Assembly: GCA_035546775.1 (NCBI GenBank)
Contig: DASZWD010000055.1
Span: forward strand, 1-50,817
DNA: 50,817 bases
Source of the DNA: Acidimicrobiales bacterium
Lineage (GTDB): Bacteria > Actinomycetota > Acidimicrobiia > Acidimicrobiales > JACCXE01
Direction of reading: 5' to 3'
The translations under genes were made by a program, and so were the position numbers. Of the stretch, positions 19,242 to 26,700 are shown piece by piece. Below the pieces are notes generated by a model. The model was not told the origin of the DNA. It ran no database searches and saw only the letters and a program-made list of their open reading frames with translations. Each line of letters begins with the position of its first letter. Positions within the stretch are counted from its first letter, which is position 1.

Positions 19242-20066
19242 CTAGACCGAGAGGATCTCGTAGGTGGTCTCGGAGCCGTCGTCCTCGTCGTCGTCGCTCG
19301 CCATCTCGTCCATGCCGATGGGACCCTTGGCCCGCCCGGCCAGGAACTGGCGGATGATCTTGTTGTCGGTCGTCTTCATCTCCTCTTTCGAGGCGAACTT
19401 CACGAGACCGGAGCGGAACAACACCCCGATGTACTCGGCGGTGCGCATGACCGAGGGGATGTTGTGCGTGATGATGAAGAACGTGGCGCCCGTCTTCTTC
19501 TGGACGTCGACCACGAGCTCGTCGAGATAGGCCACGCGGACGGGATCGAGGCCGGAGTCGGGCTCGTCGAAGAGCACGATTTCGGGATCGAGCACCAGCG
19601 CCCGGGCGAGGCCGGCGCGCTTTTTCATGCCGCCCGACACTTCACCCGGCACCTTGTTCATGTGGTCGAGCATCCCGACAAGCGCCGACTTCTCCATCAC
19701 GATCTCGCGGATCTCGCGCTCGGACTTGCGCGTGTGCTCGCGCAACGGGAAGGCGATGTTGTCGTACATGTTCATCGATCCGAACAGTGCCCCGTCCTGG
19801 AACAGCACGCCGAACTTGCGCCGCACGCGGTAGAGGTCCTTCTCCGACATGCCGACGGTCTGCTCGCCGTCGACCCAGATCTCGCCCGCGTCGGGGCGCA
19901 GCAGCCCGATGATGTTTTTCAGCAGCACCGACTTGCCGGTGCCCGACGGCCCCATGATGGCCGTGATGCGGCCCTTGGGCACGTCGAAGGAGATGTCCTT
20001 CAGAACGGTGTGGGAGCCAAACGACTTGGTGACCCCTCGCAGCGAGATGATCGCCTCTTCGGCCAC
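19242..20066 (-). CDS. mceG: ABC transporter ATPase of the Mce system (MceG/MlaF-like)
   Basis: A 274-residue ATPase. Walker A is GPSGTGKS near residues 39-46, the Q-loop FGVLFQDGALFGSM, the signature SGGMKKRAGLARAL, and Walker B EIVLFDEPDSGLDP, followed by the His switch in FFIITHNI. SGGMKKR and DEPDSGLDP are characteristic of the MlaF/Mkl group. The C-terminal extension after the ATPase core ends in an acidic stretch (ASDDDEDDGSETTYEILSV), as in actinobacterial MceG. GTG 20066 has AAGGGGG upstream. In mycobacteria mceG is remote from mce operons; here it is the first gene of the operon. Confidence 0.93.
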   Translation of the reverse strand: MAEEAIISLRGVTKSFGSHTVLKDISFDVPKGRITAIMGPSGTGKSVLLKNIIGLLRPDAGEIWVDGEQTVGMSEKDLYRVRRKFGVLFQDGALFGSMNMYDNIAFPLREHTRKSEREIREIVMEKSALVGMLDHMNKVPGEVSGGMKKRAGLARALVLDPEIVLFDEPDSGLDPVRVAYLDELVVDVQKKTGATFFIITHNIPSVMRTAEYIGVLFRSGLVKFASKEEMKTTDNKIIRQFLAGRAKGPIGMDEMASDDDEDDGSETTYEILSV

Positions 20067-20103: not shown

Positions 20104-21714
20104 TCAGGCGTCGATCGATGCACGGCGCACTTCGGCGCGCCGCTCCGACTCCAGCCGTTCGAGGTCGTACGTCTCGTGGTCGACGTAGCGCATCATCTCC
20201 GCCACCGCGTGATGGCCGGCGCGCTCGGCGATCAGGTTGTGCATCTGCTGGCACACCTTGCGGTACGACGGGTGACCTTGGCGCTCGGTGCGCAGCTCGA
20301 GCATCTGCATGGCGGCCCGGGCGTTGAGCGTCATGGCGTAGCGGACCTTGTAGGCCAGGGCGACTGCGTAGGCGGCCTCGTGCGGGAAGTCGGCGCACAG
20401 CACGTCGTGCAGTTCGGCCGAGCGCTCCATCGACTCGTCGTAGGTCTCGGCGAGACCGGCGTCGGCGACGTCGGTCGGGAGTTCGTAGCCGAAGTGGGGC
20501 GTCAATGCCTGCCATTCGATCGTGAGCATGCGGTGCCGCTGCAGATCGCGGAAGGCGCCGTAGTCGCTGAGGATGTCGAAGCGGTACCAGACGTTTTCGA
20601 GGGCACGGCCGGGGCGGTGCCGGCGATTGGTGCGGTCACCGACGTAGGCGTGCACGACGCGCACCTTCTCGTCGGCCGACATCTGCGCCACGCGCGCCGC
20701 GATGGCCGTCTCGGGTTGGTTGCTGTACGGATACAGCATCGCGGTGATCATGCGGTCCTCGGCGTCGGGATCCCAGCGCACGAGCGTCACTTCGTCGGTC
20801 GCCGGCGGATCGCTGCCGGCGAAGAGTTCCCGGGCGACGGACTCCATGGCGTCGCGGTTGTCTTCGAGGTAGTGCGACCACCGCTGGCCGCGGTCTTCGA
20901 GGTCGACGCGGGTGAGAAACGACGGGATCACCTTGCGCAGTTCGGTGAGCATCATCTGGGCGTACTCACGCGCCTCGGGCAGCGGGTGGGCGTTCATGCG
21001 GATCAGCAGCTGCTCATAGGCCTGGCCCGTGCCGTAGATGCCGACGTTGGACAGCGACGCGGCGGGCAGCAGCCCGCGGATGGCGTCGAACGCCTTGGCC
21101 TTGACCGCCTGGTTCCACACGAAGTCCGAGTCGCCCGGCTGCTGCGGGTGCACCTTGCGATAGTGCTGCTGCATCGCCGGCACGAGTTCGGCGTAGGTGT
21201 CGAACATGCGGTCCATGTCGCCCACGTAGCGGGTGCCGTGCGCCGACTTCAGGATCGCCGGGTCGCGGTAGTAGCGGTAGCGACCGTTGCCGAGCCGGGT
21301 GTCGTAGGCGATGTAGCGGGTGGACTGCTCGAGGTAGGCCATCAGCCGGCCCCACTCGAGCACCTTGGTCAGCAGGTTCGACGACTGCTCGCAGGCGAGG
21401 TGGACGCCCCCGAGCTGGGCGACCGAGTCGTCGCCGTACTCGAAGAACACCTTGCGGTACAGCTCTTCGGCGCGGTTGAGGCCCATGGTGGCGTCAACGG
21501 TGAGGTCGCCGGTCATGTCGAGCTCGCCGACGAACTCGTCGAGGAACAAGCGGCGCAGGCTCTTCGCCGATCGGCTGTAGCGGGCGAATAAGGCGCCTTT
21601 GACCACTTCCGGCAGGTTCGTCAAGGCAAACACCGGCTGATCGAGGTTCGTGAAGTAGCGCCGCAGGATCACCGCCTCATCGGGCGTGAAGGTCTCTACG
21701 GCGTACCTCGTCAT
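20104..21714 (-). CDS. tandem ThyX-like protein with altered catalytic motifs
   Basis: A 536-residue protein, about twice the length of flavin-dependent thymidylate synthase (220-250). Two ThyX-like halves are visible. First half: SSNLLTKVLEWGRLMAYLEQ then STRYIAYD (residues 111-138) stands where ThyX has its RHR signature, and VGIYGTGQAYEQLLIRMNAHPLPEAREYA (224-252) matches the C-terminal ThyX helices. Second half: DLQRHRMLTIEWQALTP (390-406) keeps RHR but replaces the S-x-N-E-x-S-x-R part, followed by MTLNARAAMQMLELR (461-475). The known ThyX motif is RHRxxSxNxxSxR; neither copy has it intact. A conserved double-domain ThyX-like family exists in databases to my knowledge; dTMP synthesis by this protein is doubtful. 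ATG 21714. Confidence 0.8.
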   Translation of the reverse strand: MTRYAVETFTPDEAVILRRYFTNLDQPVFALTNLPEVVKGALFARYSRSAKSLRRLFLDEFVGELDMTGDLTVDATMGLNRAEELYRKVFFEYGDDSVAQLGGVHLACEQSSNLLTKVLEWGRLMAYLEQSTRYIAYDTRLGNGRYRYYRDPAILKSAHGTRYVGDMDRMFDTYAELVPAMQQHYRKVHPQQPGDSDFVWNQAVKAKAFDAIRGLLPAASLSNVGIYGTGQAYEQLLIRMNAHPLPEAREYAQMMLTELRKVIPSFLTRVDLEDRGQRWSHYLEDNRDAMESVARELFAGSDPPATDEVTLVRWDPDAEDRMITAMLYPYSNQPETAIAARVAQMSADEKVRVVHAYVGDRTNRRHRPGRALENVWYRFDILSDYGAFRDLQRHRMLTIEWQALTPHFGYELPTDVADAGLAETYDESMERSAELHDVLCADFPHEAAYAVALAYKVRYAMTLNARAAMQMLELRTERQGHPSYRKVCQQMHNLIAERAGHHAVAEMMRYVDHETYDLERLESERRAEVRRASIDA

Positions 21715-22734: not shown

Positions 22735-23316
22735 TCACGCTATGACCCGCAGCGCGTCGGGGACGACCCGGATGGCGACGTGCTTCGCCACACCGGCGGG
22801 TTCGCCGTCGAGTTTCACTTCGGCGGGGCGCGGGAACTCGAAGGTCATGGCCTTCGTGCGGTGGCCCTCGATGCGCGGGTGCGGCAGGTGCGAACCGGTG
22901 CGCAGGCGCGCCTTGACCTGGCGCCACTCGAAGCGGTTGAGCTTGGCCTCGTAGACGTCGAGCACGCCGTCGTTGGGGTGTGCCTTCGGCCCGAAGTTCC
23001 ACTCCCCCATCCACGGCGCGTTCATGGCGACGACGAAATGGCGCCACCCGTTCGGCTGGATCAGCAGGTGAGCGACGAAGAAGTGCACGCGACCGTCGAG
23101 CAGGACCTCCCCCACGTCGAGCGGGAACGCCATCCCGGCCGCGCCACCGAGCGTGCGGAACAGATCCCCGCCTTGGAGGCGGAAGGTCGGCGGATCGGTG
23201 TGGCTGCGCCGGGCCTCCTCGACGGCACGCGACAGCTCACGGTCGGTGTGCACGACGACGGCGCCCTCGCCTTCCGTCGCCGGTTCGCCCCACGCCTGCC
23301 CCGGCTTAATCGTCAT
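22735..23316 (-). CDS. lone DAGK/YegS C-terminal-like domain protein
   Basis: A 193-residue protein resembling the C-terminal half of diacylglycerol kinase/YegS-type lipid kinases: VVAMNAPWMGEWNFGPKAHPNDGVLDVYEA near residues 96-125 corresponds to the family's N-x-x-x-x-G...P-x-A-x-x-xDGxLDV segment, and EVKLDGEPAG near the end to the usual terminal strand. The N-terminal ATP-binding half with GGDGT is absent, and no fragment of it lies upstream, where helY ends. It is therefore probably not a kinase on its own. ATG 23316 is preferred; GTG 23322 is in frame two codons earlier. It overlaps the helY stop and the dehydrogenase start. Confidence 0.7.
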   Translation of the reverse strand: MTIKPGQAWGEPATEGEGAVVVHTDRELSRAVEEARRSHTDPPTFRLQGGDLFRTLGGAAGMAFPLDVGEVLLDGRVHFFVAHLLIQPNGWRHFVVAMNAPWMGEWNFGPKAHPNDGVLDVYEAKLNRFEWRQVKARLRTGSHLPHPRIEGHRTKAMTFEFPRPAEVKLDGEPAGVAKHVAIRVVPDALRVIA

Positions 23317-25957
23317 CGGCACCTACGACCGACGAGGCGACGACGACGCCGCGGAAGATCGCATCGGCTGCCTGGTTCGCCGTCTTGGCGGTCGTCGCGT
23401 CGGTGGCGACGAGTGCGATCTGGCGCAGCAGGTCGACGAGCTGCTTGATGTTGCGCACGAAGTCGCCGCCGGTGATCCCGTCACCCAGCAACTCGTGCAG
23501 CGGTTCGCCCATGGCCCAGGCGTAGGCGACGCCGACGAAGCCTTCGTCGACGTCGCGGGTGATCGGCAGGTGCGCCCGCTTCTCCAGCCCGACGAGCCGC
23601 GCCAGGTGCGACTCGATCTCGGTGATGCGGGCGTTGAGCCCGGCCGGGACGGGCAGGAGGGCGACGTCGGTGCCGCGCGCCTCGAAGGTGAACACCGAGA
23701 CGAGACCGGCGAGCTCGGCGGGCCCGAGGCCGTCGAGGATGCCGGCCGTGACGCAGTCGGCGATCAGCAGGTCGCACTCGTGATACAGCCGGGCGAGGCG
23801 CTCGCCGGCGGCGGTCAGGGCCCATCCGTCGACGAAGCCGAGTTCGGCGAGCACGGTCAGCACGCGATCGAGCTGGCGGCCCAGCGACGCCTCGTCGTTG
23901 CGCCGCTGGCGGCGCTCGGCGGCGAGGCTGCGTTCGAGCCGGTCGACCCGCCCGAGCGCCCGCAGGTGCTGCGCGGCGTCGGGACACGCGGCCACCGGGT
24001 GCATCGTCGCCAGCCGTTCTGCGGGCGTCCGGCCGCGGGCGCGCGATCGACCCCCTTGCCACTTCGGGGTGTACGTCTTCACGTCGTCGGGCTCGACGAC
24101 CTCCGCCTGGCGCACGAGGTCTCCAGCGGCACGCAGGAACCGCGCCGCCGTGGGATCGAACGGCGTGGGCAGCTTGATGTGCCCGGCGCGCCGCGGCGGG
24201 ACGGGAAAGTCCTTCACCCGCAGCTGCAGCCGCCGCCCGTCGTCGGTGACGACGGGCAGGTGCAGCCCGCTGAGTCCCTTGCCGCGGGGCGGGCCGAGCA
24301 CGGCGACGCGTCCCTTGGTGCGATGGCTCGGCACGATCACGATGTCCCCGGGCCGGAGCCGGTTCATGGCGTCGACGACGAGGCGGGCGTCGGAGGGCGC
24401 GTCGCGGCGAGCCGCGTCGGCCTCGGCGACGAGCAGTCGGTACTCGCGGACGTCGCCGCGCTCGCACTCGGCCTGCGCCCGGGCGCGGGCGATGTCGTGC
24501 ACGAGCCGCTCGATGGCGGCCTCCTGCTGCACCACGACGCGGTCGGCCCGGTACTGCGCAAAGCTCAGGTTGAGCAGATGGCGCGCTTCGTCGGGGGCGT
24601 AGCGCCGGACGAGATTGGCCGCCATGTTGTACGTCGGGCGAAACGACGATCGCAGCGCGTACGTGCGCCGCGACGCCAGGGCCGCCACCTGTTCGAACGA
24701 CACGAACGGCGACCACAACACGACGGCGTAACCCACGTCGTCGAGCCCGCGACGCCCGGCGCGCCCGGTGAATTGCGTGTACTCCCCCGCCGTGAGCATT
24801 TCGTGACGGTCGCCGGTGAACTTCGTCAGCTTCTCGATGACCACCGAGCGAGCCGGCATGTTGATGCCGAGCGACAACGTCTCGGTAGCGAACACCAGCT
24901 TCACCAACGCGGCGGCAAAGAGCGCTTCCACGGCCTCCTTCATCGGCGGCACGAGTCCGGCGTGGTGCGACGCCACGCCCATTTCCAACCCGGCGAGCCA
25001 GGCGTCGTAGCCGAGGGCGTCGAGGTCGGCGTCGGAAAGACCGGCGAGGTGCTGATCGGCGACGGCGCGGATCTGATCGCGTTCGGTCGGCGACGTCAGC
25101 CGCAGCCCGGCGTTCACGCATTGGCGCACCGCCTCGTCGCAACCCTTGCGACTGAAGATGAAGTAGACCGCGGGCAGCATCTCGTGATCGTCGAGCACGT
25201 GGGCCACCTCGACACGCCGCGGCGTGTAGACCTTGCGCCGCCGCCCGCTGCGCTCGTTGCGGTCGGTGCGGCTGTCGAGACGGGCGGCGAAGCGGTTGGG
25301 CAATCCGTCGACGAAGGTCGGCACGAGGTGCATGCGTTCGGAATCACGCTCTCCCGCCAGGTACAGGTGCTCGAGTTGGACGGGCCGGGTCTCGTCGATG
25401 ATGGCGTCGGTGGCGCCGCGCACGGTGCCGATCCAGTCGGCGACGTCCTCGGCGTTGCTCACCGTCGCCGACAGGCACACGAGGTCGACCGACGTCGGCA
25501 GGTGGATGATCACCTCCTCCCACACTGCGCCCCGGTACGGATTCTGGAGGTAATGGACTTCGTCGAGCACAACCCAGCGCAGGCTGTCGAGGTTGCTCGA
25601 GCGGGCGTAGATCATGTTGCGCAGCACTTCGGTCGTCATGACGATCACGTCGGCGTCGGGCCGCACGACGGTGTCGCCGGTGAGCAGGCCGACGCGAGCA
25701 GAACCGTGGCGGGCCACGAGGTCGTTGAACTTCTGGTTCGACAGCGCTTTGAGCGGCGTCGTGTAGAACGCGCGCGCGCCCTCGGCGAGCGCGCACTCGA
25801 TGGCGTACTCGGCCACCACCGTCTTGCCCGATCCCGTGGGCGCGGCGACGAGGACGGAGTGGCCCTGGTCGATGGCGTTCATGGCGTCGGACTGGAAGGC
25901 GTCGAGCGCGAACGCCAGCCCCGCCTCGAACTGGTGGCGCACGCTCGCCGCGGTCAT
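23306..25957 (-). CDS. helY: Ski2/Mtr4-like DEAD/DEAH-box helicase (HelY)
   Basis: An 883-residue superfamily 2 helicase. Motif I is APTGSGKT (39-46), Ia TTPLKALSNQKF, II VVLDEVHYLQNP (DEVH), III CLSATVSNAEDV, and motif VI TGRAGRRGLDDVGYAV. The C-terminal third holds the DSHCT domain (LYHECDLLIADCVTAGILDGLGPAELAGLVSVFTFE). Proteins of this Ski2 group unwind RNA; the actinobacterial one is HelY, next to tatC in mycobacteria as here. ATG 25957 overlaps the tatC stop as ATGA; the longer frame upstream is a tatC shadow. Confidence 0.95.
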   Translation of the reverse strand: MTAASVRHQFEAGLAFALDAFQSDAMNAIDQGHSVLVAAPTGSGKTVVAEYAIECALAEGARAFYTTPLKALSNQKFNDLVARHGSARVGLLTGDTVVRPDADVIVMTTEVLRNMIYARSSNLDSLRWVVLDEVHYLQNPYRGAVWEEVIIHLPTSVDLVCLSATVSNAEDVADWIGTVRGATDAIIDETRPVQLEHLYLAGERDSERMHLVPTFVDGLPNRFAARLDSRTDRNERSGRRRKVYTPRRVEVAHVLDDHEMLPAVYFIFSRKGCDEAVRQCVNAGLRLTSPTERDQIRAVADQHLAGLSDADLDALGYDAWLAGLEMGVASHHAGLVPPMKEAVEALFAAALVKLVFATETLSLGINMPARSVVIEKLTKFTGDRHEMLTAGEYTQFTGRAGRRGLDDVGYAVVLWSPFVSFEQVAALASRRTYALRSSFRPTYNMAANLVRRYAPDEARHLLNLSFAQYRADRVVVQQEAAIERLVHDIARARAQAECERGDVREYRLLVAEADAARRDAPSDARLVVDAMNRLRPGDIVIVPSHRTKGRVAVLGPPRGKGLSGLHLPVVTDDGRRLQLRVKDFPVPPRRAGHIKLPTPFDPTAARFLRAAGDLVRQAEVVEPDDVKTYTPKWQGGRSRARGRTPAERLATMHPVAACPDAAQHLRALGRVDRLERSLAAERRQRRNDEASLGRQLDRVLTVLAELGFVDGWALTAAGERLARLYHECDLLIADCVTAGILDGLGPAELAGLVSVFTFEARGTDVALLPVPAGLNARITEIESHLARLVGLEKRAHLPITRDVDEGFVGVAYAWAMGEPLHELLGDGITGGDFVRNIKQLVDLLRQIALVATDATTAKTANQAADAIFRGVVVASSVVGADDD

Positions 25958-26700
25958 CGCTTCAGCAGACGCCCGATCAGGATCGACAGCTCGTAGAAGA
26001 GGCACATCGGGATCGCCATGCCGAACAGCGAGTACGGGTCCTGGCTCGGCGTGATCACCGCCGCGGCCACGAAGATGATCACGATCGCCGGCCGCCGCCA
26101 GGAGCTCAGCTTCTTGCTGGTGACGGCCCCGACGAGTTCGAGGAACACGAGGAGGACGGGAAACTCGAACGCGAGGCCGAACGCCAACATCACCTTCAGG
26201 AAGAACGAGACGTACTCCTTCGGGCTGAAGATCTCCTGGAGACCCGACCCACCGATCTGGATCAGGAACTGCAGCGCCTTGGCGAAGGTCAGGTAGCCGA
26301 TGAGGACGCCGAAGAAGAACAGCCCCGTCGACGCCGCGATGAATGGGACGGCGTAACGCTTCTCCTTCTTGTGCAACCCGGGCGTGATGAAGCGCCAGAT
26401 CTCCCACAGCACGACGGGGCTGGCGATCATCAGTCCGCCGTACCCGGCAATCTTGAGCCGGACCGCGATGCCTTCGAGCGGCGACGTGATGAACAGCTTG
26501 CAGTTGCCGTGGCGCACGGCGCAGTACGGATGCACGAGGAAGTGCAGAATCCGGTAATAGAGCAGGAACGCCACGACGGCGCCGACACCGATAGCGATCA
26601 CGGAAATGAACAGCCGCTGGCGCAGCTCCGTGAGGTGCTCCACCAGCGTCATGGCGGCGAAGTCGGTCTGGTCGGCGGCGGTGGCCGCCTCGTCGGCCAC
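25954..26700 (-). CDS. tatC: Sec-independent protein translocase TatC
   Basis: A 248-residue six-helix membrane protein, the receptor subunit for twin-arginine signal peptides. It begins MTLVEHLTELRQRLFISVIAIGVG, whose EHLTELRxR is the TatC hallmark, and shows SPLEGIAVRLKIAGYGGLMIASPVVLWEIWRFITPGLHKKEKRY, the conserved first periplasmic and cytoplasmic loops. FGLAFEFPVLLVFL (helix 4, conserved FxxExP) and RRPAIVIIFVAAAVITPSQDP are also typical. Start is GTG 26700, six bases after the tatA stop. It forms one operon with tatA and helY. Confidence 0.96.
   Translation of the reverse strand: MADEAATAADQTDFAAMTLVEHLTELRQRLFISVIAIGVGAVVAFLLYYRILHFLVHPYCAVRHGNCKLFITSPLEGIAVRLKIAGYGGLMIASPVVLWEIWRFITPGLHKKEKRYAVPFIAASTGLFFFGVLIGYLTFAKALQFLIQIGGSGLQEIFSPKEYVSFFLKVMLAFGLAFEFPVLLVFLELVGAVTSKKLSSWRRPAIVIIFVAAAVITPSQDPYSLFGMAIPMCLFYELSILIGRLLKR

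Follow-up and report, generated by a model that had tools for sequence, protein, structure and literature searches.

The window analyzed here, a stretch of 50,817 nucleotides from an Acidimicrobiales bacterium, carries on its minus strand (positions 20104 to 21714) a gene with an ATG start that encodes a double-length ThyX-like protein of 536 aa plus stop. The Pfam profile Thy1 (PF02511) matches this protein in two stretches with 108.3 bits, above the cut-off of 24.8 bits, which places it in the Thy1 superfamily, while its score of 39.8 bits against the NCBIfam thyX equivalog TIGR02170 (cut-off 87.9 bits) leaves it outside the canonical equivalog. When the stretches were scored separately in the genome scan, both exceeded the Thy1 cut-off: residues 1-300 (half 1, the dUMP-loop half; 20815 to 21714, minus strand) with 51.5 bits and residues 301-536 (half 2, the flavin half; 20107 to 20814, minus strand) with 56.6 bits. 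Similarly, profile alignment (hhalign) to 19 canonical ThyX sequences gave a probability of 97.3 and an E value of 1.8e-11 for half 1 and an E value of 1.3e-14 for half 2. The 47 relatives that were aligned to the protein are 63-81% identical to it. A contiguous RHRxxS....SxR motif occurs in neither domain, the corresponding regions reading WGRLMAYLEQSTRY in half 1 and RHRMLTIEWQALT in half 2. The first-pass annotation had described two fused ThyX-like halves with neither catalytic motif intact, and this description stands, as both motifs that it had quoted are present in the sequence, LEWGRLMAYLEQSTRY as residues 119-134 of half 1 and QRHRMLTIEWQALT as residues 392-405 of half 2.

Immediately downstream, at a distance of 37 bases and likewise on the minus strand, lies a gene for an mce-type ABC ATPase (19242 to 20066), which is followed by further mce genes on the same strand. 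The location upstream of mce had been pointed out before and is correct; the link itself looks incidental, and we regard the ATPase as a neighbor only. Among the loci of 80 relatives the mce ATPase was found at a single one (L040, some 2.4 kb off) and, among the 51 that span at least 9 kb, at none, as opposed to 70 of 80 for a helicase-like gene located upstream, and a functional link to mce was rejected. This helicase-like gene (assigned by eye; present at 50 of the 51 longer loci) and a gene for a 195-aa protein (61/80) form a conserved pair at window positions 22735 to 26407 on the minus strand.

The distribution of residues over the two halves is best read against the canonical enzyme, whose active site, in passages of a published account (PMC6514825), lies between three subunits: in M. 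tuberculosis numbering, subunit A gives RHR 95-97 and Arg199, subunit B gives Ser71 and Arg190, and subunit C gives Arg87, Gln103, Ser105, Arg107 and Tyr108 of the lid (PMC6514825). The RHR of one subunit holds FAD and the S-x-R-Y of another holds dUMP at that site; the two motifs are neighbors within one canonical chain and yet serve two different sites. The residue equivalences of both halves were mapped by profile alignment to the 19 canonical ThyX sequences, which comprise 17 with the motif and two with the motif under longer spacing out of 26 fetched loci (seven were dropped); since these sequences were picked by motif, their 19/19 at the motif positions holds by construction. Half 1 carries E129-Q-S131-T-R133-Y134 (21313 to 21330, minus strand), equivalent to E86, S88, R90 and Y91 of the dUMP loop and lid in T. 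maritima ThyX, and E129, S131, R133 and Y134 correspond to Gln103, Ser105, Arg107 and Tyr108 of the M. tuberculosis enzyme. It further carries S97 (21424 to 21426, minus strand), the equivalent of T. maritima T55 and M. tuberculosis S71, a third-subunit FAD contact, and R213 of an R..LP motif (21076 to 21078, minus strand), the equivalent of T. maritima R147, which we take to contact dUMP. In place of the R-H of the canonical RHR, which is lost, half 1 has W121-G122 (21349 to 21354, minus strand). Half 2, in turn, carries the RHR motif with its FAD and dUMP contacts as R393-H394-R395 (20530 to 20538, minus strand), R475 (20290 to 20292, minus strand) at the position of T. maritima R174 and M. 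tuberculosis R199, and N464-A-R466 (20317 to 20325, minus strand), which corresponds to T. maritima N163 and R165, the latter being equivalent to M. tuberculosis R190, a third-subunit FAD contact. Like canonical ThyX/FDTS (PF02511; T. maritima TM0449, M. tuberculosis, H. pylori), the protein possesses Thy1 domains, the fold in half 2 and, each in one half or the other, equivalents of T. maritima T/S55, R78, H79, R80, E86, S88, R90, Y91, R147, N163, R165 and R174, which include the RHR and the E-x-S-x-R-Y loop; unlike the canonical enzyme, it consists of two fused, diverged domains between which the RHR...SxR motif is split.

This partition was followed over 95 double proteins, the present one included, 84 of which are of the actinobacterial type (the window, 47 of the 80 relatives' loci, 29 from the draw on the phylum, and L123, L126, L143-L146 and L155) and 11 of a phage or Bacillota-plasmid type (L124, L125, L156-L161 and L164-L166, with L124 and L156 nearly identical). 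The remaining 33 of the 80 relatives' loci, two loci with an insert (L162, L163) and L167-L190 stand outside this set. E-x-S-x-R-Y is found in half 1 of 95/95 double proteins and S-x-R-[YF] in half 2 of none; conversely, RHR is found in half 2 of 95/95 (as RHNR in eight Bacillota-type rows) and in half 1 of none. S97 is a serine and R475 an arginine in all 95, as is the R213 position in half 1, while half 2 has an arginine at the latter position in just 2/84 proteins of the actinobacterial type and 0/11 of the others. The earlier observation that one half keeps RHR and the other S-x-R-Y is thereby extended to the entire set. An alignment of 73 sequences, which also takes in L167 and L188 and in which nine rows are only 21-25% identical to the protein studied here, has 26 invariant columns: V28, E36, A44, S47, R48, G94, S97, V98, E109, E129, S131, R133, Y134, R213, L216, P217, G225, E247, P264, R393, H394, R395, G409, Y449, L474 and R475. 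That the protein is a decayed pseudoenzyme, as the lack of an intact motif in either half might imply, is highly improbable given that these columns include all remaining motif residues, and decay was rejected on this invariance. The split rather looks like a division of labor, because RHR and S-x-R-Y already serve different sites in canonical ThyX. Like halves of the actinobacterial and the Bacillota type match each other (half 1 to half 1, E 1.2e-24; half 2 to half 2, E 3.3e-17), whereas crossed halves do not (E 0.24 and 0.21), which suggests that double ThyX goes back to a single old event followed by specialization of the two halves.

Phages and plasmids contribute the most distant of these relatives. 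The double proteins Ma-LMM01 gp020, Tunturi_5 gp50, BONAISHI ORF269 and WP_080623771.1 of a Bacillus plasmid, annotated as 'thymidylate synthase' or similar, share domain order and motif partition with the present protein and differ from it in sequence, with 23-28% identity in BLAST pieces and an identity of 21-28% for the phage proteins. The Bacillota type differs further in having RHNR in half 2 and NGR, GHSS and an equivalent of Arg87 in half 1. Closer full-length relatives are located on plasmids of Euzebya (49% identical) and Miltoncostaea (44%) and are annotated as 'FAD-dependent thymidylate synthase'; the Euzebya plasmid copy has a dCTP deaminase gene three genes upstream. When the proteins of Tunturi_5, Miltoncostaea and Euzebya were used to search viral sequences, no relative was found. 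In two viral contigs with the Bacillota-type phage form (L162 and L163), the ORFs are 903 and 910 aa long and contain, directly before the serine equivalent to S97, an insert of 332 aa that is intein-like by eye; by pattern, both ExSxRY and RHR/RHNR are retained beyond this insert. A passage of PMC5050341 lists inteins in a ThyX-like protein of a mycobacteriophage.

Not all residues divide cleanly between the halves. The two third-subunit contacts are separated in the actinobacterial type, with the Ser71 equivalent (S97) in half 1 and the Arg190 equivalent (R466) in half 2 in 84/84 proteins, the position of N464 being an asparagine in 82/84; in the non-actinobacterial double proteins, R466 has no counterpart in half 2 (0/11), and 9/11 carry the arginine, and with it both equivalents, in half 1. 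Further differences from canonical ThyX lie in positions that are replaced in both halves, namely the equivalents of T. maritima H53 (D95 in half 1, P368 in half 2), N85 (L128, E400) and S83 (A126, T398) and of M. tuberculosis Arg87, a dUMP contact from subunit C (N113, which is N in 82/84, and Y385). The histidine at the H53 position is kept in half 1 of the 11 other double proteins, and the arginine at the Arg87 position in half 1 of the eight Bacillota-type rows; its absence from both halves here speaks against a clean partition. Nor is half 1 cleanly stripped, as it retains arginines at the positions of T. maritima R80 and R174, R123 in 84/84 and R239 in 82/84 of the actinobacterial type (the placement of R239 depends on one alignment gap), and the replaced positions are themselves near constant, with W121 in 72/84, G122 in 83/84 and Q231, which occupies the Arg190-equivalent position of half 1, in 84/84. 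Such constancy suggests a retained function, and it might be proposed that the protein is a ThyX-type synthase in which R123, R239 and other conserved residues of half 1 build a second working or regulatory site. We consider this unlikely, as none of the 95 double proteins keeps the histidine of RHR in half 1, 83/95 lack the first arginine there (it is kept in 12/84 of the actinobacterial type and 0/11 of the others), and half 2 has no SxR[YF] in any of them.

Structural modeling of the complete protein, which had been proposed as a check, was carried out with AlphaFold2. A model built from 48 close relatives had a mean pLDDT of 73.2 and was poor in half 1 (below 50 at residues 28-83 and 89-134); with the distant phage relatives added, giving 73 sequences, the mean pLDDT rose to 86.8, at a pTM of 0.85. 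In this model, residues 307-514 superimpose on T. maritima ThyX 1o26_C with a Z score of 16.5 and an rmsd of 2.3 over 189 aligned residues, and the top Foldseek match is likewise T. maritima ThyX (E 1.6e-06), so that half 2 as modeled has the ThyX fold. For half 1, the profile match (E 1.8e-11) and the Pfam Thy1 match suggest the same fold; here the assignment comes from sequence profiles because the list of structural matches is filled by half 2. The ThyX chains met among the solved structures are all single-domain proteins of 270 residues or fewer.

The genomic context of thymidylate synthesis bears on what the protein does. In the source genome (3.75 Mb, 97.5% complete), thymidylate kinase is present, and no other Thy1 protein, ThyA, DHFR or PF00265 thymidine kinase was found. 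Within the phylum, 88 of 296 genomes encode a relative of double ThyX, and a strong match to canonical ThyX (E 5e-32 or better) occurs, among the matches listed, in 0/88 of these as compared to 120/208 of the others (Fisher p 9e-26, with kinship ignored); this mutual exclusion at the genome level is confounded by shared ancestry. As a rule, the double-ThyX genomes show two weak matches in the canonical ThyX search, again among the matches listed, which is the sole argument against a divergent single ThyX having remained hidden. ThyA scores above 60 bits in 2/88 carriers (G129 and G199, both also with DHFR) and 32/208 other genomes, a third carrier, G230, has a partial ThyA match of 51 bits, and DHFR is present in 3/88 carriers (one match being weak) and 33/208 others. 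Since ThyX leaves folate reduced, frequent loss of DHFR is expected alongside it, as put forward in a passage of PMC9931769. For 23 of the 296 genomes, double ThyX, strong canonical ThyX and ThyA matches were all lacking; four of these have a permuted ThyX, and the 19 that are left show that the absence calls are imperfect. In a further 41 of the 296 genomes, likewise lacking double and strong canonical ThyX, the only match was a ThyA-like one below 60 bits, in several cases with a stop codon inside it, and one genome (G040) has two full-length double ThyX genes on different contigs (C5, E 2.3e-190; C71, E 2.4e-187).

The permuted form is a single ThyX of about 250-300 aa, apparently circularly permuted, that was observed in five genomes (L147-L151, from G051, G039, G009, G075 and G162). 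The signature THRxFSRNSxSSR lies close to its N-terminus, the piece with which ThyX normally begins is found at its C-terminus, and the second domain match is weak. The five genomes lack double ThyX and come from two families whose other sampled members have it. One copy (L148) is located between a dapA-like and a dapB-like gene (by eye), and a search of 50,697 phage records with the permuted sequence gave 1024 matching records at E 1e-3.

The first-pass annotation had suggested a new flavin- or nucleotide-dependent reaction, and had listed the lack of another thymidylate synthase in the genome, together with complementation of a thyA/thyX mutant, as observations that would speak against it; the former is what the genome search returned, with neither canonical ThyX nor ThyA found elsewhere. 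As the gene is the sole thymidylate-synthase-like one found, and a strong canonical ThyX accompanies it in 0/88 carriers among the matches listed, the suggestion is not borne out. A related possibility is that the protein, though akin to ThyX, acts on another substrate or serves another role, dTMP being made by a different enzyme. Precedents appear in the entry titles among the fold matches, which name the UMP/dUMP methylase PolB and a C. glutamicum ThyX reported as not required for thymidylate synthesis, and the low score against the thyX equivalog would fit as well. The same genomic findings count against this explanation, together with the failure to find a PF00265 thymidine kinase, as does the setting of the phage copy in Tunturi_5, which is found with dUMP-producing enzymes (it adjoins a dCMP deaminase gene, with a dUTPase three genes away), and we regard it as quite improbable.

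We consider it probable that the protein is the flavin-dependent thymidylate synthase of the organism in a fused, obligately asymmetric form, which would work as a dimer of fused twins with composite sites and the predicted activity of ThyX. The composite site is inferred from the sequence together with the published subunit roles; from the same basis we infer the quaternary structure, the number of live sites, the substrate and the activity. Two chains, and with them four ThyX-type domains, would form a pseudo-tetramer resembling the canonical ThyX homotetramer. In each working site, half 2 would give the FAD-binding RHR and the arginine at T. maritima position 174, and half 1 the dUMP-binding E-x-S-x-R-Y loop, the R..LP arginine and the serine that is contributed by the third subunit in the canonical enzyme. 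Such half-2/half-1 composites would amount to two working sites per dimer, while the two sites centered on the degenerate WGR of half 1 would not bind FAD in the canonical manner. The predicted reaction is that of ThyX, in which dUMP, CH2-THF and NAD(P)H yield dTMP and THF, a chemistry that fits life without DHFR. The first-pass annotation had left it at one site or none for the two halves together; the partition by subunit role in 95/95 double proteins argues for the former, to be read as one kind of site, and against the latter.

The double form as such has been noticed in print before. Valas and Bourne (2009; PMC3224940) mention, in the passages concerned, a domain-duplicated ThyX in Chloroflexi that has 'not been characterized'; the likeness to the present protein is one of description, and these passages contain no motif analysis or mechanism. 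An account of a split ThyX motif or its mechanism was not found in searches of the open literature, outside of which the subscription journals mostly lie, and the split-site account appears, as far as found, to be new. More tentatively, and a little short of an even chance in our estimate, double ThyX might represent an old, obligately asymmetric class of ThyX that is present in whole bacterial lineages and some of their phages, in which fusion allowed one domain to specialize on the flavin and the other on the substrate; catalytic sites would thereby be halved in number, and a second pair of conserved, non-catalytic pockets would persist that may be regulatory.

In many bacteria ThyX is an essential enzyme, and it is a drug target. 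A naturally split ThyX, on which large actinobacterial groups apparently depend as their sole thymidylate source, would reveal the residues that work in trans, and with one site per domain pair it would provide a system for dissecting the ThyX mechanism. Annotation that relies on an intact motif would wrongly label the double ThyX proteins as inactive.
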